Assembly (NCBI RefSeq): GCF_008843145.1
Contig: NZ_CP030265.1
Coordinates: 3,836,501 to 3,900,500, forward strand
Reading direction: 5' to 3'
DNA from: Skermanella pratensis
Lineage (GTDB): Bacteria > Pseudomonadota > Alphaproteobacteria > Azospirillales > Azospirillaceae
Length of the DNA: 64,000 bases
The position numbers were made by a program, and so were the translations under genes. A model generated the notes under the pieces. The model was not told where the DNA came from and ran no database searches. It worked only from the letters and a program-made list of their open reading frames with translations. This document shows, one piece after another, positions 40,138 through 51,616 of the stretch (positions are counted from its first letter, which is position 1; every line of letters starts with the position of its first letter).

Positions 40138-41314
<1,177 letters not shown>

Positions 41315-42067: not shown

Positions 42068-43681
42068 TCACGCCGCCGGCAGCAGTTCCTTCGTGTACAG
42101 GCTCTGCCCGTCCAGATCCTTCAAGGTGACCAGCATCACGCCGTCCTCGCTGATGTCCACCTGGCCGAAGAACTGCATCCCGGCCGAGGGAGCCAGGTTG
42201 GACTGCCCGTCCGGCGGTGCCTTCACGTACATCAGCTGCGGGCCGAAGGTGTCGTCCAACGGGTTCGGGCCGAAGGTGCCGGCGTTCAGCGGGCCGGAGA
42301 CGAACTCCCAGAACGGTTCGAAATCCTGGAACCTGGCCTTGTTCGGATCATAGAAATGGGCGGCGGTGTAGTGGACGTCGGCGGTCAGCCACACCGTGTT
42401 GCGGATGCCGTTGCGCCGGATGAAGCTCAGCAGGTCGGCGATCTCCAGCTCGCGCCCCCGTGCCGGGCCGTCGCCCTGGGCGATCGCCTCCGACCCGGTC
42501 TTGTCCTTGCCGTTGTCGTAGACGATCAGGCCGATCGGCATGTCGGCCGCGATCACCTTCCAGGTCGCGTCCGAGGCCAGCAGGGCCTGCTTGAGCCAGC
42601 GGATCTGCTCGGACCCCAGGATGGCGGTCTCCGGTCCCATTTCCTCCTGGAGGTTGGCGGTATTGGGGCCGCGATAGCTGCGCATGTCGATGCGGAACAC
42701 GTCGAGATGCGGGCCGTAGGAGAACTTGTTGTAGATCCGGTCGCGGTTCTCCGGATCGTGCCGGATCGGCATGTATTCCAGGAAAGCCCGCATGCCGTTG
42801 GCGGCCAGCACGGCGGCGCTCTTCTCCTTATAGCGCTGGTCGGCGTCCATGCGCTTTTCCCAGTACCAGTTGTTGGTCGCCTCGTGGTCGTCCCACTGGG
42901 CGAACATCGGCACCTCGGCGTTGAAGCGGCGCAGGTTGTCGTCCATCAGGTTATAGGCATGGGCGCCTCGGAAATCGCCCAGCGTCTCGGCGACCTTGGA
43001 CTTCGCCTCGGTCGTGACGTTCTTCCACACCCCGCCGCCCGGCAATTCCTTGGTCTCGGGGATCGGGCCGTCGGCATAGACCGTGTCGCCGGAATGGATG
43101 AAGAAGTGCGGCTCGGCCCGGCGCATCGCCTCGTAGATCCTCATGCCGCCGAAATCGGGGTTGATGCCGTATCCCTGCCCCGCCGTGTCGCCCGACCACA
43201 CGAAGCGGACCCGGCCATCGCCCGGGGCGGTGCGGAACTGGCCGGTCACCGGCTCGCTGAAGCTCTTCAGGTCGGAAAGGTCCTGGAAGCTGACGCGGTA
43301 GAACACCCGCTGGTCGGCCGGCAGCCCGGACAGGTCGATCCGGGCGGTATAATCGCTGTCGGTGACGGCGACCGGACCATCGAAGCGCTTGGCGTTCCTG
43401 AAGCTCTCGGTCGTGGCGACCTCCACGATCATCCGGGCCGGCCGGTCGGCGCGGCTCCAGACGATCGCCCGCCCGCCGGAAAGGTCGCCGGACTGGACGC
43501 CATAGGGCATGGCGATGCGGCGGCTGTCGGCGGTGATGATGGCCGGGGCCGGGGCCGGCGCCTGGGCCAGTGCCCGGCCGGCCGTCGACGCCGCGACGAG
43601 CAGCCCGCCGCCGGCCAATGCCGAATTGTACAGGAACGAGCGGCGGGTAACCCACCGCCGGGGCTCGGGCAACTTGGACAT
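42068..43681 (-). CDS. phoD: PhoD-type alkaline phosphatase
   Basis: 537 residues. A Tat signal (TRRSFLYNSALAGGG) predicts export of a folded metalloenzyme. After the N-terminal Fn-like PhoD domain (VQSGDLSGGRAIVWSRAD) come the metal-binding motifs WSGDTAGQG, HSGDTVYADGP, QWDDHEATNNW and TADVHYTAAHF. PhoD enzymes use calcium and iron to cleave phosphomono- and diesters, usually under phosphate starvation. It is a single gene; no PHO box was identified. Confidence 0.92.
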   Translation of the reverse strand: MSKLPEPRRWVTRRSFLYNSALAGGGLLVAASTAGRALAQAPAPAPAIITADSRRIAMPYGVQSGDLSGGRAIVWSRADRPARMIVEVATTESFRNAKRFDGPVAVTDSDYTARIDLSGLPADQRVFYRVSFQDLSDLKSFSEPVTGQFRTAPGDGRVRFVWSGDTAGQGYGINPDFGGMRIYEAMRRAEPHFFIHSGDTVYADGPIPETKELPGGGVWKNVTTEAKSKVAETLGDFRGAHAYNLMDDNLRRFNAEVPMFAQWDDHEATNNWYWEKRMDADQRYKEKSAAVLAANGMRAFLEYMPIRHDPENRDRIYNKFSYGPHLDVFRIDMRSYRGPNTANLQEEMGPETAILGSEQIRWLKQALLASDATWKVIAADMPIGLIVYDNGKDKTGSEAIAQGDGPARGRELEIADLLSFIRRNGIRNTVWLTADVHYTAAHFYDPNKARFQDFEPFWEFVSGPLNAGTFGPNPLDDTFGPQLMYVKAPPDGQSNLAPSAGMQFFGQVDISEDGVMLVTLKDLDGQSLYTKELLPAA

Positions 43682-43829
43682 ATCGCGGATTCTCCCGTTC
43701 CGGTTTATCGGTTCGCGGAAGCTATCCGGTGCCCATGACAGTTTTTCATGCGGGACCGGCGCAAATGGGTACCTCCTGACGGCCAGTCCCCAGCCACTCC
43801 GATAACCTGCGGATCGGCCGTCCTCTCCC

Positions 43830-45017
43830 TCAGTCCCCGTGCAGCGGCATCGTGACCGTCACCTTCGTCCCACCGCCATTGGCCGCGCCGTCTCCGCCGA
43901 ACCCGCCCGCGATCTCCAGCACGCCTTCGACCCGCGTCACCAGGGCGCGGATCAGGTTCATGCCGAGGCTGTCGGCCGCCTCCTCCGGCATGCCCTTGCC
44001 GTTGTCCGAGACTTCGAGCCTGAGCCGCTCGCCCGGCAGGACGGTCAGCGACACCCGGATCTCCCCCTGGGCACCGTCCGGGAAGGCATGCTTGAAGGCG
44101 TTGGTCACGATCTCGTTGATCAGCAGGCCGAGCTGGATCGCCATGTCCAGCCCCAGCGCCACGTTGTCCGTCTCGACCATCAGCTCCGGCCCGTCGCCCC
44201 GCGCGGTGAAGGAGGTCCTCAGATGGGCGCACAGGTCCCGGACATAGCCGGAGAGGTCGACCCGGGCCAGGTCGTCGGACTGGTACAGCTTTTCGTGGAC
44301 GATGCTGAGCGAATGGATACGGCTGCGCACGTCGTCCAGCTCCTGCCGGACCAGCGGGCTGGTGGACTTCCGCGCCTTCAGGCTGACCAGGCTGGAGATG
44401 ATCTGGAGGTTGTTCTTGACCCGGTGGTAGACCTCCTTCAACAGCACTTCCTTCTCGACGACGCTGGCGCGCAGCGCCGCGTTCGCCTCAAGAAGCTCCT
44501 CCTCCCGCTGGCGCAGGTCGCTCAGGCTGCTCAGCAGTTCCTGGTTCTGGCGCTGGACCTCCTCGACCGGGTCGAGCGGCTGCTGGCGGGCCAGTTCGTC
44601 CATCAGCTTGTTGATGAACTCCTGGACCGTCATGCCCAGGGGCTTCGACAGCGACCGGGTCAGCCGGACCGTCGTTCCCTCGCCGGACGTCTCGATGTCC
44701 AGCCGGTCCATCAGGCGGCGGGCGCCGAGTAGACCCAGCCCCATGCCGGTGCGCGAGCGATAGCGGCCGGCCAGGATGTCGTCCAGTTCCGTGATGCCGG
44801 GCCCGCGGTCGCCGACCTCGATCATCAGGGACACCCTGCCGCCGACCTCCTGGATCCGGAAATCGGCCTTGCCACCGCCGGCATAGGCATAGGCGTTCCG
44901 GCAAACCTCCGACACGGCGGTGGCGATGCGGGTCTGGTCCTGGACCTCGAAGCCCATCCGGTCGGCGACCAGCCGCGCACGCTGCCGGGCATGAACGATG
45001 TCCCGGTCATGGCGCAC
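43830..45017 (-). CDS. HisKA_2-type sensor histidine kinase with N-terminal RsbT-like ATPase domain
   Basis: About 395 residues from GTG 45017. Residues about 1-130 form an anti-sigma-type ATPase domain (VSEVCRNAYAYAGGGKADF, DRGPGI, TGMGLGLLGARRLMDRL), much like RsbT. A coiled coil follows, then the HisKA_2 phospho-acceptor box KEVYHRVKNNLQIISSLVSL and a second ATPase domain (NEIVTNAFKHAFPDG, DNGKGM, LGMNLIRALV). HisKA_2/HWE kinases feed PhyR in alphaproteobacteria. It is last in the stressosome-phyR operon. The start codon is uncertain: CTG 45044 is possible and no ribosome site is evident. Confidence 0.85.
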   Translation of the reverse strand: MRHDRDIVHARQRARLVADRMGFEVQDQTRIATAVSEVCRNAYAYAGGGKADFRIQEVGGRVSLMIEVGDRGPGITELDDILAGRYRSRTGMGLGLLGARRLMDRLDIETSGEGTTVRLTRSLSKPLGMTVQEFINKLMDELARQQPLDPVEEVQRQNQELLSSLSDLRQREEELLEANAALRASVVEKEVLLKEVYHRVKNNLQIISSLVSLKARKSTSPLVRQELDDVRSRIHSLSIVHEKLYQSDDLARVDLSGYVRDLCAHLRTSFTARGDGPELMVETDNVALGLDMAIQLGLLINEIVTNAFKHAFPDGAQGEIRVSLTVLPGERLRLEVSDNGKGMPEEAADSLGMNLIRALVTRVEGVLEIAGGFGGDGAANGGGTKVTVTMPLHGD

Positions 45018-45040
45018 ATGGACCGTGAAAAGCGGCCAGG

Positions 45041-46060
45041 TCAGGGTTCTCTGCTCTTCACCACGACGATCAGGTTGTCGTCCCGGACCCGCTTGAAATC
45101 GCGGTACAGCACGGCCGCGATCATCGTCGGGTGTCTTGTTGCCAGCCCCGGGTAGCTGTCGATATCCCATTTGGTGCTCAAACCGTCTGAATGGAAAACC
45201 GCCAGCAGGTCGCCACCGTAAGCATACTCGTATTCCTTCACTTTCGACATATTATGCCCAACGACGCCGTTTTGCGACACCGTTCGGGCCTGCCTGTCCC
45301 GCCAGCGGAAAAATCCCGCGATATTGCCCACCCCGGCGAACCGGACCCGGCGTTCGGCCGGTTCGATCCGCACGACGGCGATCGCCGCGCCGCGCGTCCC
45401 GCGCAACGCCCGGTGCAGATCCTCGACCAGCGGCTCGGGCATCCGCTCCCTCGATTGCCTGAAACCGGCACGGGCCGCATCGGCCGCGTCGGCCGCGCCG
45501 AGCCCATGCCCGAGACCGTCACACAGCAACAACAGCGTGGCGCCTCGATCGGTCACCCGGACAGCCCAGGTATCGCCGCTGACCACCTCCCCGATGCGCG
45601 GAAGGCAGACCGCCCCGACCCACAGACCCGGCAAGTCGGGCGGCGGCTGGCGGCCGCCGGCCCGCACGCCGCAGACGATCACGGTGCCGTTCCCCGGCTT
45701 GGAATAGATATCGAAATGGTCGGACTGGCGCTGGATCGCGCCCAGCCCGGTGCCCGGGCTGTCGCCGCTGGTGACGCCGTCCCGCAGGCAATCCTGGACG
45801 TTCGCCATGCCGGGGCCGGCGTCCATGGCGATGACGGTGACCTCGCCGCTGGCGCCCGACGACCGGGCGTCCAGCAGGATCTCCCCGCCGCCGCCATGGC
45901 GCAGGATATTGGTCGCCGCCTCGGTCACGACCAGTGCCAGGCGGGCGCACTCCTGTTCGCCGAGGCCGGCTGGAGTCGCAAGCTGCACCGCCTTGCGGCG
46001 CGCCTCGGCGACCTGGGTCTGTTCCCGGATGGGGACCGAAACTACGGCCGTTCCGTCCAT
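45041..46060 (-). CDS. RsbX-like protein: RsbW/T-type ATPase domain fused to SpoIIE (PP2C) phosphatase
   Basis: 339 residues. An N-terminal HATPase_c_2 domain (VTEAATNILRHGGGGEI, DAGPGM, GTGLGAIQRQSDHF) is joined to a SpoIIE-type serine phosphatase domain (LLLLCDGLGHGLGAADAA, GVGNIAGFF, FHSDGLSTKWD). It probably dephosphorylates RsbS/RsbR STAS domains to reset the stressosome, as RsbX does. ATG 46060 overlaps the rsbT stop by 19 bases. Confidence 0.88.
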   Translation of the reverse strand: MDGTAVVSVPIREQTQVAEARRKAVQLATPAGLGEQECARLALVVTEAATNILRHGGGGEILLDARSSGASGEVTVIAMDAGPGMANVQDCLRDGVTSGDSPGTGLGAIQRQSDHFDIYSKPGNGTVIVCGVRAGGRQPPPDLPGLWVGAVCLPRIGEVVSGDTWAVRVTDRGATLLLLCDGLGHGLGAADAADAARAGFRQSRERMPEPLVEDLHRALRGTRGAAIAVVRIEPAERRVRFAGVGNIAGFFRWRDRQARTVSQNGVVGHNMSKVKEYEYAYGGDLLAVFHSDGLSTKWDIDSYPGLATRHPTMIAAVLYRDFKRVRDDNLIVVVKSREP

Positions 46061-46479
46061 GATACGACTTTCACTATGGTTCCTTCGCCCGGGACGGACC
46101 GGATCTCGAACTCCTTGCACAGGCGCTTGGCACCGCTCAACCCGAGCCCGAGTCCGCCGCCCGTGCTGTATCCGTCCTTCAGCGCCAGGGCGATGTCGGC
46201 GATCCCCGGCCCCCGGTCGCTGAAGATCATCTCGACCTTGCGCTTCGACATCCGGCCGACGATGGCGATCCGCATCTCGCCCCCGCCGCCATAGTCCAGC
46301 GTGTTGCGCGCCAACTCGCTGGCCGCGGTGACCATGCGGGTGGTCTCGATCTTGGAGGCGCCGATCGTCGCCATGGCGGCGGCTGTCACCCGCCTGACCC
46401 GGCTGACGTCGGCGCCGGTCCGGATCGGGATCACCTCGCCGTCGGCGGCTCCTTCCTCCTGCTCCGGCTCAGGCCTCAT
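46042..46479 (-). CDS. rsbT: Stressosome serine kinase RsbT
   Basis: 145 residues. The GHKL-type ATPase boxes are ASELARNTLDYGGGG (N box), SDRGPGIADIALALKDGY (G1) and GGLGLGLSGAKRLCKEF (G2), very close to Bacillus RsbT. RsbT phosphorylates RsbS and RsbR on the stressosome and, once released, activates an output partner. It starts 11 bases inside the rsbS 3' end. Confidence 0.92.
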   Translation of the reverse strand: MRPEPEQEEGAADGEVIPIRTGADVSRVRRVTAAAMATIGASKIETTRMVTAASELARNTLDYGGGGEMRIAIVGRMSKRKVEMIFSDRGPGIADIALALKDGYSTGGGLGLGLSGAKRLCKEFEIRSVPGEGTIVKVVSWTERP

Positions 46480-46870
46480 GGAGGCGCGCGGCCTCCTCGG
46501 CGGCGCCCCGGCGGATCAGCTCCATGCCGCGGTCCACGTCGAGGGCGGTGCGGACGCCCTGGAGCGACATGCCCAGTTCGACCAGAGTGATGGCCACCGC
46601 CGGCCGCATGCCGACGATCACCGTCGAGGCGTCCAGGATGCGGGCGATCGCCGAGATGTTGGCAAGCATGCGGCCGATGAAGCTGTCCACCACGTCCAGG
46701 GCCGAGATGTCGATCAGGACGCCCTTGGCGTGGGTCTTGGCGATCCGTTCGGCCAGATCGTCCTTCAGCGTCATGATCATCCTGTCCTCCAGGTCGACCT
46801 GGATCGTCAGGAGCAGGCAGTCGCCGATCTGGAAGATGGGGATGCGGTTCGGCTCGAGGAAATGGGTCAT
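46469..46870 (-). CDS. rsbS: Stressosome STAS protein RsbS
   Basis: 133 residues, a single STAS domain. The phospho-acceptor segment LIDISALDVVDSFIGRMLA places Ser63 at the position of the phosphorylated Ser59 of Bacillus RsbS. RsbS co-assembles with RsbR and holds RsbT. The C-terminal ~20 residues beyond the STAS fold (AAEEAARLHEA) are an extension. Confidence 0.93.
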   Translation of the reverse strand: MTHFLEPNRIPIFQIGDCLLLTIQVDLEDRMIMTLKDDLAERIAKTHAKGVLIDISALDVVDSFIGRMLANISAIARILDASTVIVGMRPAVAITLVELGMSLQGVRTALDVDRGMELIRRGAAEEAARLHEA

Positions 46871-46884
46871 GTCGATGCCGCCGC

Positions 46885-47742
46885 TCAGTGGCCCGTGAAG
46901 GTGACGCCGGTGCGCTTCAGCGCGTGGGCGAAGGCACTCTGTAGGTCGGCCTTCGTCGCGACCTGCGGCAGCTCGACGCCCAGATGCACGATGGTCTGGG
47001 CGATCTGCGGCCTAATGCCGCTGATGATGCACTCCGCCCCCATCAGCTTGGCCGCGGCGGCCGTTTTCAGCAGGTGCTGGGCGACCAGGGTGTCGACCGT
47101 GGGCACGCCGGTGATGTCGATGATCACGATCTCGGCCTTGCTTTCGACCACGGCTTCGAGTAGATTTTCCATTACGATCTGCGCGCGCGAGCTGTCGAGC
47201 GTGCCGATCAGGGGAAGCGCAACGATGCGGTCCCAAAGCTGCACCACCGGAGTGGACAGCTCCAGCATCTCCTGCTGCTGGCGCTGGATGATATCCTCCC
47301 GGCCGCGCAGATAGATGTCGTTGGTGTACAAGCCCAGCTTGTCGAGCAGGACGGTGGCGGACCAAGCCTCGTCGACCAGGGTCTGCGGGTCATCCTTGTA
47401 CTGATCGCGCAGGCATTCGAAAATCGGCTGCTTGAGCGCAAGGATGAACGTCGCGGTCTCCGTCGGGGTGAAGCCGTGATCGACCCGGTAGTTGGTGACC
47501 TCGGTCAGCATGTCCCGGACATCCTGCCACTGGTCGCTTTCGATGTCGAAATTGACCCCGTTCTTGGTCGCGGCGGTCAGATGGGTCAGGAAGCTGCGCG
47601 ACTGGCGGCGGATCTCCGCCTCGCGCATCAGATCGGCGCGAAGCACACCGACGTCGGATTGCGCTGCGATCCAGTCGGTCAGGATACGGTCCTGGTACCG
47701 GCTCAGGAGAGCCGGGAGCTTGCTGCCGGAAGAGTCGGGCAT
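46885..47742 (-). CDS. rsbR: Stressosome sensor RsbR
   Basis: 285 residues. The N-terminal ~150 residues are the helical, globin-like RsbR sensor domain, followed by a linker helix (REDIIQRQQQEMLEL) and a STAS domain (165-280). The two Bacillus RsbRA phosphosites align with Ser184 (LDSSRA) and Thr218 (TVDTLV), with exactly the same 34-residue spacing. A single RsbR gene is present, so the sensor shell may be homogeneous. The sensed signal is unknown. Confidence 0.93.
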   Translation of the reverse strand: MPDSSGSKLPALLSRYQDRILTDWIAAQSDVGVLRADLMREAEIRRQSRSFLTHLTAATKNGVNFDIESDQWQDVRDMLTEVTNYRVDHGFTPTETATFILALKQPIFECLRDQYKDDPQTLVDEAWSATVLLDKLGLYTNDIYLRGREDIIQRQQQEMLELSTPVVQLWDRIVALPLIGTLDSSRAQIVMENLLEAVVESKAEIVIIDITGVPTVDTLVAQHLLKTAAAAKLMGAECIISGIRPQIAQTIVHLGVELPQVATKADLQSAFAHALKRTGVTFTGH

Positions 47743-47757
47743 CTTTTCTTCTTCTCG

Positions 47758-48561
47758 TCAGTTCATCTTCTGAGGCGGATGCACCGCCAGCGCCTGACCG
47801 ATCGCGGTCCGGAGAACCTCCGGCTGGAACGGCTTGGCGATCAGGAAGGCCGGCTCCAGCTGTTCGCCAGTCAGCAACCTTTCCGGGAAACCGGTGATGA
47901 AGATCACCGGCAGGTTGGTCGAGCGCAGGATCTTCTGGACGGCCTTGATGCCGCTGTCGCCGCCCTTCAGCTGGATGTCGGCCAGGATCAGTTCCGGCGC
48001 GGTCTCGCGGGCGAGTCTCAGGGCCTCTTCCTCGCGGGCGGCGGAACCGCAGACCTTGTGGCCCATGTCGGTCACGAGACCGGCGATGTCCTCGGCGATC
48101 AGGGGTTCGTCCTCGATGATCAGGACACGGACGGAGGTCTGCTTGGACAGCTCGCCCCGGGCGGATTCCAGCTCGACGCGGATCTCCTCGGTGGTGGCGT
48201 TCAGGATGCGGGCCGCCTCGTCGAAGGAGAATCCTTCAAGGGAGATCAGCAGCAGCACCTGGCGCTGGCGCGGCGGCAGCCTGCCGACGCCCTGGATCAC
48301 CTTGGTGTCCGAGGTACCTTCGGGAAGGTCGGGCACCGCTTCCGGGAACGTTTCGTCCACCAGGGACCAGACCTCATGGAACAGCGCGAACAGTTCGAGC
48401 CGGATGTTGCCGGCGGGATCGATGCGGTCGGGCTCTGCCAGATAGGCTTCGAGGCAAACTCGGACATATTGGTCGCCGCGATCCTGGGATCCCAACAGGG
48501 CTCGGGCATAGCGCCGCAAGTAGGGAAGAAATTTCACAATCTCTGCGGAGGATTCCGGCAT
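47758..48561 (-). CDS. phyR: PhyR-type general stress response regulator (anti-anti-sigma)
   Basis: 267 residues. A sigma-like N-terminal domain (about 10-140, with LPPRQRQVLLLISLEGFSFD) is fused to a C-terminal receiver (145-262) with Asp195 in ILADIQLKGG, acidic pair IIEDE at 149-152 and the VIFITGFPERL motif near 220. Phosphorylated PhyR binds NepR, releasing the ECF sigma factor EcfG. nepR and ecfG are not in the window. It is the first gene of the operon with rsbRST, giving a direct link between a stressosome and PhyR. Confidence 0.93.
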   Translation of the reverse strand: MPESSAEIVKFLPYLRRYARALLGSQDRGDQYVRVCLEAYLAEPDRIDPAGNIRLELFALFHEVWSLVDETFPEAVPDLPEGTSDTKVIQGVGRLPPRQRQVLLLISLEGFSFDEAARILNATTEEIRVELESARGELSKQTSVRVLIIEDEPLIAEDIAGLVTDMGHKVCGSAAREEEALRLARETAPELILADIQLKGGDSGIKAVQKILRSTNLPVIFITGFPERLLTGEQLEPAFLIAKPFQPEVLRTAIGQALAVHPPQKMN

Positions 48562-48746
48562 TCTGATCTCAACGGTCCATCATGAAGCTGATCTGTCCGC
48601 CTCTTCTCCGGCGGGGCTCAATATCGAAGGTTCGAGATATCATATTCGCGTATCCGGCGGATCGGGGTATTCGGCCTAAACCCTTTCGCCGCGGATATCG
48701 GCTGCGATCCGACCGGCAACGCCTCAAGTCAAGAAAGGTTGCAGCC

Positions 48747-49556
48747 ATGCGTGAATTGACACGGGCTCCGCCGGAGAGCAATGGTCGGAACGCCCGCCCC
48801 AGCCGCCCCGCAGCCAGCGAGAAAGCCGCCTTGCCAATCACTTCCGAGGTCGACCTCTACGATCCGGTGAAAGCCTTCCTCGAAGCCCAGGGGTACGATG
48901 TCAAAGGCGAGGTGCGGAGCTGCGACCTGGTCGCCGTCCGCGCCGGCGAACCGCCCGTTTTGGTTGAGTTAAAGCTGCGGTTCTCGTTGTCGCTGGTTCT
49001 CCAGGGAGTCGACCGGCTGGCCCTGTCGGACCGCGTCTACCTCGCGGTTCCCCGGCCCGCCGGCCGGCGGGCGACGGGGCCGAACGCGAACGACGGCAAT
49101 GTCCGCAAGCTCTGCCGGATGCTGGGGCTCGGGCTGCTGACGGTGGATCCCACCGCCCGCGCGGGCAGGCAGGTGGACCTTGTGATCGAGCCGGCACCCT
49201 ACCGGCCGCGGGTGAACGCCAAGCGCGCCCGGCTGCTGCTGAGGGAGCACGGCCGGCGGCTGGGCGATCCCAACCGCGGCGGGTCGAGCAAAGTCAAGAT
49301 CGTGACAGCCTACCGCCAGGAAGCATTGCGCTGCGCGGCTCTGCTGAAGGCGAACGGCCCCATGGCCGTCGCGGCACTGCGCCGGGACGGGGATGCTCCC
49401 GGCGCCGCCGGCATCCTCCAGCGCAATGTCTACGGCTGGTTCGAGCGGGTGAGCCGCGGCACCTACCGGCTGACCGAGGAAGGGCTGCGCGGGCTGGAGC
49501 AGTTCGCACCGGAAGAACCATCGGCGGAACTGGTCGAACAATCCGCGCCGCGGTGA
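48747..49556 (+). CDS. DUF2161 family PD-(D/E)XK-like protein
   Basis: 269 residues. The N-terminal part shows the nuclease-like pattern: EVRSCDLVAVRAGE, then PVLVELKLRF. This gives an Asp and an Glu-x-Lys in the PD-(D/E)XK arrangement. The C-terminal part (YRQEALRCAALLKANGPMAV) looks like a winged helix. DUF2161 proteins are predicted phosphodiesterases of unknown role. ATG 48747 was preferred; an in-frame ATG at 48582 lies too close to the divergent phyR start. Confidence 0.8.
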   Translation: MRELTRAPPESNGRNARPSRPAASEKAALPITSEVDLYDPVKAFLEAQGYDVKGEVRSCDLVAVRAGEPPVLVELKLRFSLSLVLQGVDRLALSDRVYLAVPRPAGRRATGPNANDGNVRKLCRMLGLGLLTVDPTARAGRQVDLVIEPAPYRPRVNAKRARLLLREHGRRLGDPNRGGSSKVKIVTAYRQEALRCAALLKANGPMAVAALRRDGDAPGAAGILQRNVYGWFERVSRGTYRLTEEGLRGLEQFAPEEPSAELVEQSAPR

Positions 49557-49595
49557 TGTTGATCTGGAAAGAGGAGTGCGTCACCGGGAGGCTGG

Positions 49596-51616
49596 ATGAT
49601 GGGCAGCACGGATTTCGCCGAAAAGCGCCGGGTCATGATCGAACGCGACATCATGCCCCGGGGGATCGACGACGCCGGCGTGATCGCCGCTTTGGGCCGG
49701 GTGCCGCGGGAACTCTTCGTCCCGAGTACCTGTTGGAAATCGCCTACGACGACTCGCCACTGCCGATTGAACAAGGCCAGACGATCTCGCAGCCTTTCGT
49801 CGTCGCCCTGATGATGCAGGCGGCTGAACTGGTCCCCGGCGCCAAGGTGCTGGAGATCGGCACCGGCTCAGGCTACTCCGCCGCCGCGCTGGCGGCGATG
49901 GGGTGCGAGGTCTATTCCATCGACCGCCATGCCTCCCTGGTTGAGGCTGCCCGGACACGGCTGGAGCGGGCGGGCTATGCAGGTATCCACCTGCGGGCCG
50001 GCGACGGTACCCTGGGCTGGCCGGAGGTGGCGCCGTTCGATGCCGTGATCGTGACCGCCGGCGGGCCGCGCCTGCCGGAGCCGCTGTCCCGCCAGCTCAA
50101 GGTCGGCGGGCGGATGATCATGCCGGCCGGCGCGGAAGCCGGCGGCCAGCGCCTGATCCGGCAGCGCCGCACCGGCGAGGACATGTTCGCCGAGGAGGAT
50201 CTCGGCTTGGTCGCCTTCGTGCCGCTGATCGGCGCCCATGGCTGGCCGGAAGCAACCCGCACCGAGGCCATGCGCCGTTCCCCGGCCCTGCCGCCCGACG
50301 CGGCTGAGCGGGTCCGAGACGCCGCCGAACCGCTGCCCGACGTGGACGACGAGCGGTTCGGCGTGCTGTTCGACCGGATCGCCGATGCCAGGGTCGTCCT
50401 GCTGGGCGAGGCGACCCACGGCACCTCGGAGTTTCACCGCGCCCGCGCGCGAATCACCGAGCGGCTGATCACCCGGCACGGCTTCACCGTCGTGGCGGTC
50501 GAGGCCGATTGGCCCGATGCCGAACAGATCGACCGGTATGTCCGCGGCCGGCCGCCGGGCGGGTCCGACGACGCGGCGTTTTCGCGCTTTCCCGCCTGGA
50601 TGTGGCGGAACGAGGAGGTCGCCGGCTTCGTCGACTGGTTGCGCCGGCACAACGACGGGGTGCCGGAACCAAGGCGGCGGGTCGGGTTCCACGGCCTGGA
50701 CCTCTATGGCCTGAACGGTTCCATCGCCGCCGTGCTGGACTATCTGGACGAGGTCGATCCGCAAACCGCCGGGATCGCGCGCGAGCGGTACGGCTGCCTG
50801 GCGCCGTGGCGGCTGGCACCTGAAACCTATGGGCGCGCGGCGCAGACCGGCGGGTTCGACACCTGCGAGAAGGCGGTGCTGGACATGCTCCGGGAACTGC
50901 TCGACAAGCGGCTCTCCCATCAGGCCGCCGCCGGTGAGGACAGCTGGCTGGACGCCCGGCAGAACGCACGGCTGATCGCCTCCGCGGAGGAATATTACCG
51001 CACACTCTATCATGGCGCGACCACCAGCTGGAACCTGCGCGACCGCCACATGTTCGAGACGCTCCGGGCGGTGATGGAGACCCGCGGACCGGAGACGAAG
51101 GCGGTGGTTTGGGCCCACAACACCCATGTGGGCGACGCCGCGGCCACGGAAATGGGCCGCCAGGGTCAAGTCAACCTGGGGATGCTGTGCCGCGAGGCGT
51201 TCGGAAGCGAGGCGGCGCTCGTCGGGTTCGGAACCGACCGTGGGACAGTCGTCGCGGCGTCCGGGTGGGGCGGCCCGATGGAGGTGATGGAGGTGCCGCC
51301 GGCGCACCCGGACAGCTACGAGCACCTGTGCGTCCGCTCCGGCAAGCCCCGGTTCCTGCTCGACCTGCGGCCCGGACGGAACGAGCCGCTGGTCGAGGAT
51401 CTGAAGCGACTCCGGCTGGAGCGGGCGATCGGCGCGATCTACCGCCCTGGGGCCGAGCGGGAGAACCACTATTTCCAGGCCTCCCTGCCCGGCCAGTTCG
51501 ATCTCTACGTGTGGTTCGACCGGACCACCGCGATCCGGCCCCTGGCGCCTATTGCACCGCCGCCTGGCCGAACAGGAAGTTCGGAAGGAACAGCGACACC
51601 CACGGCACATAGGTGA
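49596..51616 (+). pseudogene. Protein-L-isoaspartate methyltransferase / erythromycin esterase fusion, frameshifted
   Basis: About 673 residues when repaired. Residues 1-~205 are a PCMT-type methyltransferase: FAEKRRVMIERDIMPRGID, RVPRELFVP, then ISQPF, LEIGTGSGYSAA and the Y-rich core. The rest is an erythromycin-esterase-family domain with LLGEATHGTSEFH, VEADWPDA and WAHNTHVGD. Fusions of this kind occur in bacteria and probably act on damaged aspartyl sites or related esters; no macrolide role is implied. The first ~43 codons and the remainder are in different frames; one base is missing near 49721-49724 (CCCGAG). The last 68 bases overlap the convergent TRAP permease gene. Confidence 0.8.

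Follow-up and report, generated by a model that had tools for sequence, protein, structure and literature searches.

Stressosome modules made up of rsbR, rsbS, rsbT and rsbX (RSTX) are paired with PP2C, cyclic di-GMP (c-di-GMP) or HisKA-REC outputs, according to the available portion of a survey devoted to globin-type RsbR (PMC9237108). The same portion reports that RsbU_N is found on some of these outputs and is absent from most, and that an interaction between VvRsbT and VvD1 was not obtained (Heinz et al.). In Vibrio, deletion of RSTX and deletion of the kinase gave similar phenotypes (PMC10014275, in the part accessible to us), while the retrieved sections of PMC12143880 describe activation of RsbU by RsbT through a linker and mention RsbU_N-fused kinases. 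To the extent that these excerpts cover it, stressosomes coupled to two-component systems have already been described from Vibrio and other bacteria (PMC9237108, PMC10014275). Here we describe a six-gene operon of Skermanella pratensis which encodes a stressosome, the response regulator PhyR and a histidine kinase carrying an N-terminal RsbT-like domain, which we call KinN. The operon lies in a 64,000-nucleotide stretch of DNA (the window), positions 3836501-3900500 of a 5.87-Mb single-contig genome.

The operon is real and conserved in the genus. Of the two themes presented below, the KinN plug has the wider reach and is the more novel, and the link to PhyR is narrower but more striking. No description of a stressosome joined to PhyR, or of a histidine kinase with a fused RsbT-like domain, was found in the accessible parts of the literature searched, and an earlier mention in RsbRST reviews is possible. 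Excerpts of PMC6530869 and PMC4598750 mention a stressosome and PhyR, or just Phyre2, and leave them unjoined, and the consulted text of PMC3999984 found no part for PhyR in a Rhodobacter partner-switch phenotype. For a large group of RSTX modules, output proteins with a conserved domain of RsbT type would offer a concrete and testable answer to how Gram-negative stressosomes pass on their signal. If the reading developed here is true, Skermanella joins stressosome partner switching and the PhyR phosphorelay, two well-studied general stress systems, in one operon, and so suggests a way in which systems regarded as separate could be connected.

The six-gene operon and its products

Six open reading frames (ORFs) run along the minus strand from position 48561 to 43830 of the window, in the order phyR, rsbR, rsbS, rsbT, an rsbX-like phosphatase gene and a HisKA_2 kinase gene. 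ORF coordinates and Pfam confirmed this gene set as given in the original prediction, which had overlooked the additional N-terminal RsbT-like domain of the kinase. From the coordinates, phyR and rsbR are separated by 15 bp and rsbR and rsbS by 14 bp, while rsbS and rsbT overlap by 11 bp, rsbT and rsbX by 19 bp, and rsbX and the kinase gene by 4 bp if the latter starts at 45044. This start is a guess, a CTG which overlaps the rsbX stop; the sole ATG/GTG/TTG start listed for the kinase frame is at 45170, within rsbX. The genes phyR, rsbS and the kinase gene were found in the same order and with the same spacing in all five Skermanella genomes, where the RsbR, RsbT and phosphatase domains were also present. 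This synteny rules out a chance neighbourhood, and the wiring of the operon by conserved linkage is well supported.

The first gene, phyR (47758-48561, minus strand), encodes protein P0001 with a sigma-like domain followed by a receiver (Pfam PhyR_sigma2, PhyR_sigma-like and Response_reg), with Asp195 as phospho-acceptor and a FITGFPERLLTG segment at residue 221. P0001 scored 309.3 bits on the NCBIfam PhyR model (PRK09191) against a cut-off of 240, and its residues 6-264 could be aligned with the solved PhyR structure 3n0r, with similar alignments to 4g97 and 4qic; domain order, family score and receiver motif are all those of PhyR. Two further PhyR-type proteins are encoded in the genome (2324516-2325268 and 3287126-3287878), each 37% identical to P0001. 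The former passes the same cut-off with 266.7 bits and the latter just misses it with 235, and the FPERLLTG segment was present only in P0001 among the three. Judged by sequence, P0001 is a full PhyR and the only canonical PhyR found in this genome.

The genes for RsbR (sensor and STAS), RsbS (STAS) and RsbT (GHKL kinase) follow together on the same strand. Pfam and comparison with RsbR stressosome structures showed that rsbR (46885-47742, minus strand; P0002) encodes an RsbRD_N sensor and a STAS domain with Ser184 and Thr218, and Pfam and the RsbS structures 6jhk and 6qcm identified rsbS (46469-46870, minus strand; P0003) as a single STAS scaffold with Ser63. The product of rsbT (46042-46479, minus strand; P0004; Pfam HATPase_c) is a GHKL switch kinase with intact N, G1 and G2 boxes in a motif alignment; a phmmer search of the Protein Data Bank (PDB) with RsbT gave no match at E 0.001. 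The three phosphosites are as first stated and match the positions in the structure alignments, where they align to residues which vary among 9o3o, 9o4r, 9o5l, 9o3z and 6qcm (T/A/E; T/A; S/A). In Listeria the phosphosites at the corresponding places are T175, T209 and S56 (PMC6614362, in the portion available). Across 23 loci compared, Ser184 was found in all 23 and Thr218 in all 22 that were readable, and the RsbS site is occupied by Ser in 19 loci and by Thr in the other 4. The RsbR of genome G352 was left out of the Thr218 count because its frame (L144:10950-11831) stops within the STAS domain, either as a pseudogene or through an assembly error.

The fifth gene (45041-46060, minus strand; P0005), adjoining rsbRST, encodes an N-terminal RsbT-like ATPase domain (HATPase_c_2) and a SpoIIE/PP2C phosphatase domain, the latter with 31.5 bits against a cut-off of 25. 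RsbX has a single domain, and the extra N-terminal domain is the reason why we name this protein RsbX-like and not RsbX. An RsbT-like domain at this place was found in 23 of the 23 loci; with that of the phosphatase included, the number of RsbT-like domains in one of these operons reaches up to three.

The output kinase (43830-45044, minus strand; P0006) is made up of KinN (residues 1-133), a helical linker (about 140-205), HisKA_2 with His207, the residue expected to accept the phosphate, and HATPase_c; Pfam assigned HATPase_c_2, HisKA_2 and HATPase_c. No REC domain was detected by Pfam, which leaves phyR as the only receiver gene among the six, and there was no Pfam match to RsbU_N at E 0.001. 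The best NCBIfam match of the core was PhyK (NF051872; 141.5 bits against a cut-off of 750), with the kinase core alone being aligned. By structure comparison the core is also close to the blue-light kinase EL346, among the 50 best of 605 Foldseek matches to the P0006 model, where histidine kinases dominated and which were uninformative on KinN. The AF2 model was built from a two-sequence input (mean predicted local distance difference test score 72.5, predicted template modelling score 0.41) and was used for secondary structure only; it predicts a GHKL-like order of elements at residues 1-131 and a single helix from 159 to 226 which would run through His207. A single-sequence search of the named collection gave one full-length relative of the kinase only, from Skermanella stibiiresistens (87%), a species which is counted once, as G081.

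The KinN domain and its spread

The 66 RsbT-like domains of the 23 loci were compared in an unrooted tree. One branch (95/88) separates the 20 KinN rows from all others, a second (100/100) does the same for the 23 phosphatase N-domains, and the RsbT rows are what remains, in part unresolved. The KinN branch spans Proteobacteria, Deinococcus and, in degenerate form, Streptomyces, whose KinN (branch length 4.07) was spotted by eye and not by BLAST and was added to the tree by hand.

For the genome searches only the best candidates of each genome were scored (10 for RsbS in 385 genomes, 11 for the KinN profile, 4 in the phylum sample, 22 or 31 in other searches), and misses are possible. Some genes, rsbR-S-T in L177 among them, were overlooked or wrongly placed by the gene finder, and adjacency was therefore judged by tblastn and coordinates. 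RsbS was found at E 1e-12 in 12 of 385 alphaproteobacterial genomes. The KinN profile matched 15 of these 385, including all 12 with RsbS, the other three through frames of 143-172 amino acids only. Seven matches were in the kinase position (G000, which is the S. pratensis genome, G140, G175, G257, G284, G352 and G409), with frames of at least 236 amino acids, and all seven adjoin rsbS, two of the contigs ending inside the gene. Some contigs were short (G257, 3.3 kb; G284, 4.0 kb; G325, 9.1 kb), and the genomes of G352 and G257 are 88-89% complete. Three additional KinN genomes were found in a phylum-wide sample of 398, with KinN directly after rsbT-rsbX in each, and the order genomes G015 and G052 also have KinN. 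Some more distant RsbS loci (35-45% identity; L157:9087-9875, L154:9312-10105) carry two tandem RsbT-like genes and no KinN kinase.

Of 100 plasmid records that matched RsbS, ten loci were analysed. Seven of these have a KinN kinase after RSTX: Sphingomonas aliaeris, Caballeronia, Paraburkholderia, Deinococcus radiodurans MP1, Deinococcus KNUC1210, Phaeobacter and Salipiger, the Phaeobacter porticola plasmid (L261) being taken as the same locus as G409:C2. The Streptomyces microflavus plasmid has a degenerate KinN ahead of a PP2C domain, and KinN was not found in the Variovorax and Embleya loci (two of the ten). The D. radiodurans MP1 locus (L260, NC_000958.1 25219-31023) consists of RSTX, a KinN hybrid kinase gene and a REC-kinase-like gene, its genes being annotated merely as STAS, anti-sigma and ATP-binding proteins.

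The domains behind KinN and its linker differ. By Pfam, HisKA_2 kinases without a receiver were found in Skermanella, G175, Phaeobacter and Salipiger, and G284 was assigned to the same type from 57% identity over the portion present on its contig. HisKA kinases with receivers occupy this place in G140, G015, Sphingomonas, D. radiodurans and Paraburkholderia, and PP2C does so in Streptomyces.

Alignment A3 comprises 12 KinN sequences, degenerate rows having been left out by choice, and all 12 share Arg20, Glu46, Asn50 and Asp79. Glu46 and Asn50 are, we assume, catalytic positions, and Arg20 is at the place equivalent to SpoIIAB Arg20, which we take to contact the STAS partner. Four KinN sequences of three lineages (G352 and G257, which are one genus; Caballeronia; Streptomyces) have lost the N-box Asn together with both G boxes (G1 and G2) but retain the sequence of the first two helices. 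A phmmer search of the PDB with KinN alone gave weak matches only, the best being RsbW at E 0.02. Since the ATP site has been lost while the domain and its genomic place were retained, a binding role is suggested for KinN, and docking seems likelier than catalysis.

A possible route from the stressosome to PhyR

In the mechanism which we propose, RsbR and RsbS would form the STAS core, RsbT would be its switch kinase and the ATPase-phosphatase would reset it. The soluble HisKA_2 histidine kinase would dock on, or be gated by, this core by way of its RsbT-like KinN, with a long helix as the connection between KinN and the catalytic dimerisation domain. When RsbR senses stress, RsbT would phosphorylate Ser184 and Thr218 of RsbR and Ser63 of RsbS, and phosphorylation of the core would free or re-orient KinN and make the kinase active. 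Phosphate would then pass from His207 to Asp195 of PhyR, whose sigma-like domain would take an anti-sigma factor off an extracytoplasmic function (ECF) sigma factor. We infer KinN docking, assembly of the complex, phosphotransfer to PhyR and the identities of the anti-sigma and sigma partners. To gating of the kinase through KinN, with the kinase charging PhyR, we would give about an even chance. Somewhat below that, and tentatively, we propose that KinN is a second kind of stressosome plug, by which the complex may bind and release an output enzyme via a built-in RsbT fold, independently of ATP in some lineages, and which in Skermanella may drive PhyR. The synteny in five genomes, PhyK as the best match of the kinase core and the restriction of FPERLLTG to P0001 speak for the earlier proposal that a partner-switch sensor complex is joined to the PhyR phosphorelay.

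A classical route, in which freed RsbT binds the kinase at KinN or at the linker and activates it, with KinN as receptor or dimer partner of RsbT, is in our opinion rather unlikely. Binding of RsbT to an output protein is established for RsbU, and the long helix predicted from KinN to the catalytic core resembles the coiled-coil linker mechanism of RsbU (PMC12143880, in the sections retrieved). It is also the case that rsbT adjoins KinN in every locus where both were sought. However, the kinase showed no RsbU_N at the threshold given above, and an RsbT-like KinN should offer an RsbT-type surface to STAS proteins, whereas this route requires a contact between RsbT and an RsbT-like domain. Both the classical route and gating through KinN keep the broad idea of the original prediction, and they differ in which RsbT-like domain moves. 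That RsbT release feeds PhyR, as first proposed, is the generic guess; the data rather favour coupling through the RsbT-like domain which the kinase itself carries.

At the level of the order, RsbS was found in 13 of 82 genomes, five of them Skermanella, and PhyR was at the locus in those five only, which in this sample rules out the pairing as an order-wide trait. A search for the PhyR sigma-like domain in 20 stressosome loci (19 non-Skermanella genomes, three short contigs) found none, and PhyR was beside the stressosome in none of the ten named plasmid loci. A survey of Rhodospirillales neighbourhoods had been suggested to decide whether the arrangement is random: it is not, given the five Skermanella genomes, nor is it a Rhodospirillales trait, and in the genomes sampled the pairing looks genus-specific. 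Canonical PhyR was present in all four genera searched which have a HisKA_2-type KinN kinase (Skermanella; G175, 55%; G284, 53%; G409, 47%), small numbers in which G175 and G284 belong to one family. It was not found in G140 and G352 (no match) or in G015 and G052 (36-38% paralogues only). We regard this co-occurrence of PhyR and kinase type as weak evidence.

Several observations weigh against the route to PhyR that we propose. The linkage of PhyR and stressosome is seen in Skermanella only, PhyR being located elsewhere in G175, G284 and G409, and canonical PhyR was also found in two of the six genomes whose kinase is of another type or was not seen, namely G257, whose contig ends before the kinase core, and G261, whose stressosome-linked kinase is without KinN. 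The sister genus G001 has an orthologue of this PhyR (72%) adjoining another kinase, which by eye looks like PAS-HisKA, and gave no match to RsbS; therefore this PhyR can exist without a stressosome. No KinN kinase was found in four class genomes with a more distant RsbS (G263, G325, G361, G432), and P0006 is far from reaching the whole-protein cut-off of PhyK. Neither nepR nor ecfG adjoins any of the three PhyR-type genes of the genome, and its sole match to the NepR profile is a zf-HC2-type anti-sigma factor of 77 amino acids beside its own ECF sigma factor. The EcfG promoter motif, with GGAAC-N15-19-CGTT taken as its consensus, was found 0 times in the window against 1.78 expected.

That PhyR is a mere neighbour, or is also fed by other kinases, and that the stressosome kinase acts on another receiver, we consider improbable. 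The limitation of the linkage to one genus in our samples, the sister genus with the same PhyR beside another kinase, and the REC domains which five of nine other sixth-gene proteins scanned carry themselves would all fit such a reading. Against it are the conservation in five of five Skermanella genomes, the short gap between phyR and rsbR in the window, a kinase core nearest to PhyK and without a REC of its own, and phyR as the sole receiver gene of the six. A role of KinN as a second Ser/Thr kinase of the core, which would phosphorylate RsbR and RsbS and in this way read the core's state, with signalling left to the histidine kinase part, agrees with the intact N, G1 and G2 boxes in Skermanella and with the invariant Glu46, Asn50 and Asp79 of A3, but is very unlikely given that the four degenerate sequences, which A3 excludes, keep KinN without these motifs.

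The partners of PhyR were sought in the remainder of the genome. The NepR profile PF18557 gave one match in each of the five Skermanella genomes. In S. pratensis this is the 77-amino-acid protein (G000:C1:3244686-3244919, within L164:8462-8920), which is soluble, scores 29.5 bits for Pfam NepR and 22.3 bits for zf-HC2, reaches 24.9 against a cut-off of 100 on the NCBIfam NepR model and contains an EPVPERMLDLL stretch. It is possibly a bridge between the NepR and zf-HC2 anti-sigma types. Similar sequences underlie the NepR-profile matches looked at in G033, G016, G054 and G081. An orphan ECF sigma factor (G000:C1:780394-781035; L165:4395-5036) is 46-47% identical to the presumed EcfG of G064 and G409, which were taken as EcfG from their place beside phyR-nepR and share 55% with each other. 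It is the best match to presumed EcfG in five of five Skermanella genomes, at 44-46%, and is a candidate EcfG; no anti-sigma gene was seen adjoining it. Nothing convincing came from scanning the surroundings of this sigma gene (L266-L270, L165) and the whole window for the motif of a small NepR.

A complete nepR-ecfG locus elsewhere in the genome was not found, the NepR-profile match being the zf-HC2-like anti-sigma factor. The situation differs in G409, where phyR is grouped with a sigma gene and with a small ORF which by eye resembles nepR, and in G064, which has a sigma gene, a nepR confirmed by Pfam and a PhyR-like ORF with a shortened receiver. The link of this PhyR to the general stress response is weaker than had been implied, with no linked nepR or ecfG and no convincing nepR found in the genome.

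Scans for sigma-70 promoters and terminators over 43600-48900 found none. Alignment of the regions upstream of phyR revealed an element, GCAAC-N16-CGTTGC, at 48714-48744, which is kept in five of five Skermanella genomes. We do not claim it as a promoter, since it can also be read as an imperfect dyad and coincides in part with what may be the ribosome site of the divergent DUF2161 gene. By Pfam, an IS110-type transposase gene is located at 40229-41314 of the window, about 2.5 kb past the end of the operon, and an ORF at 49553-51616 has a PCMT methyltransferase domain fused to an erythromycin esterase domain.

Comparison with described systems

The stressosome of Bacillus and Listeria, which acts through RsbU, RsbV, RsbW and SigB, is like that of Skermanella in RsbR, RsbS and RsbT, in the phosphosites and in an RsbX-type PP2C phosphatase. 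Skermanella differs in its RsbRD-type sensor, in the RsbT-like domain on the phosphatase and in having no rsbU, rsbV, rsbW or sigB in the operon, the output being a histidine kinase with an RsbT-like domain. In the Vibrio RSTX module (VvD1-D2), so far as the available text of PMC9237108 and PMC10014275 describes it, a histidine kinase gene also directly follows RSTX and the kinase likewise has no RsbU_N. There, RsbR has a haem globin sensor and a c-di-GMP output has been proposed, whereas Skermanella has RsbRD_N, a KinN kinase and PhyR.

With the PhyR-NepR-EcfG response Skermanella shares a canonical PhyR and a HisKA_2/HWE-type kinase core which is nearest to PhyK, but it is without a linked nepR or ecfG and has a stressosome in place of the sensor-kinase input. 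The outputs fused to RsbU_N (RsbU, a Moorella GGDEF protein and some proteobacterial histidine kinases; PMC12143880, in the part consulted) have in common with the Skermanella kinase an N-terminal coupling domain, a helical linker and an exchangeable output. They differ from it in the coupling domain itself, which is the four-helix bundle of RsbU_N in those proteins and an RsbT-like GHKL domain in Skermanella.

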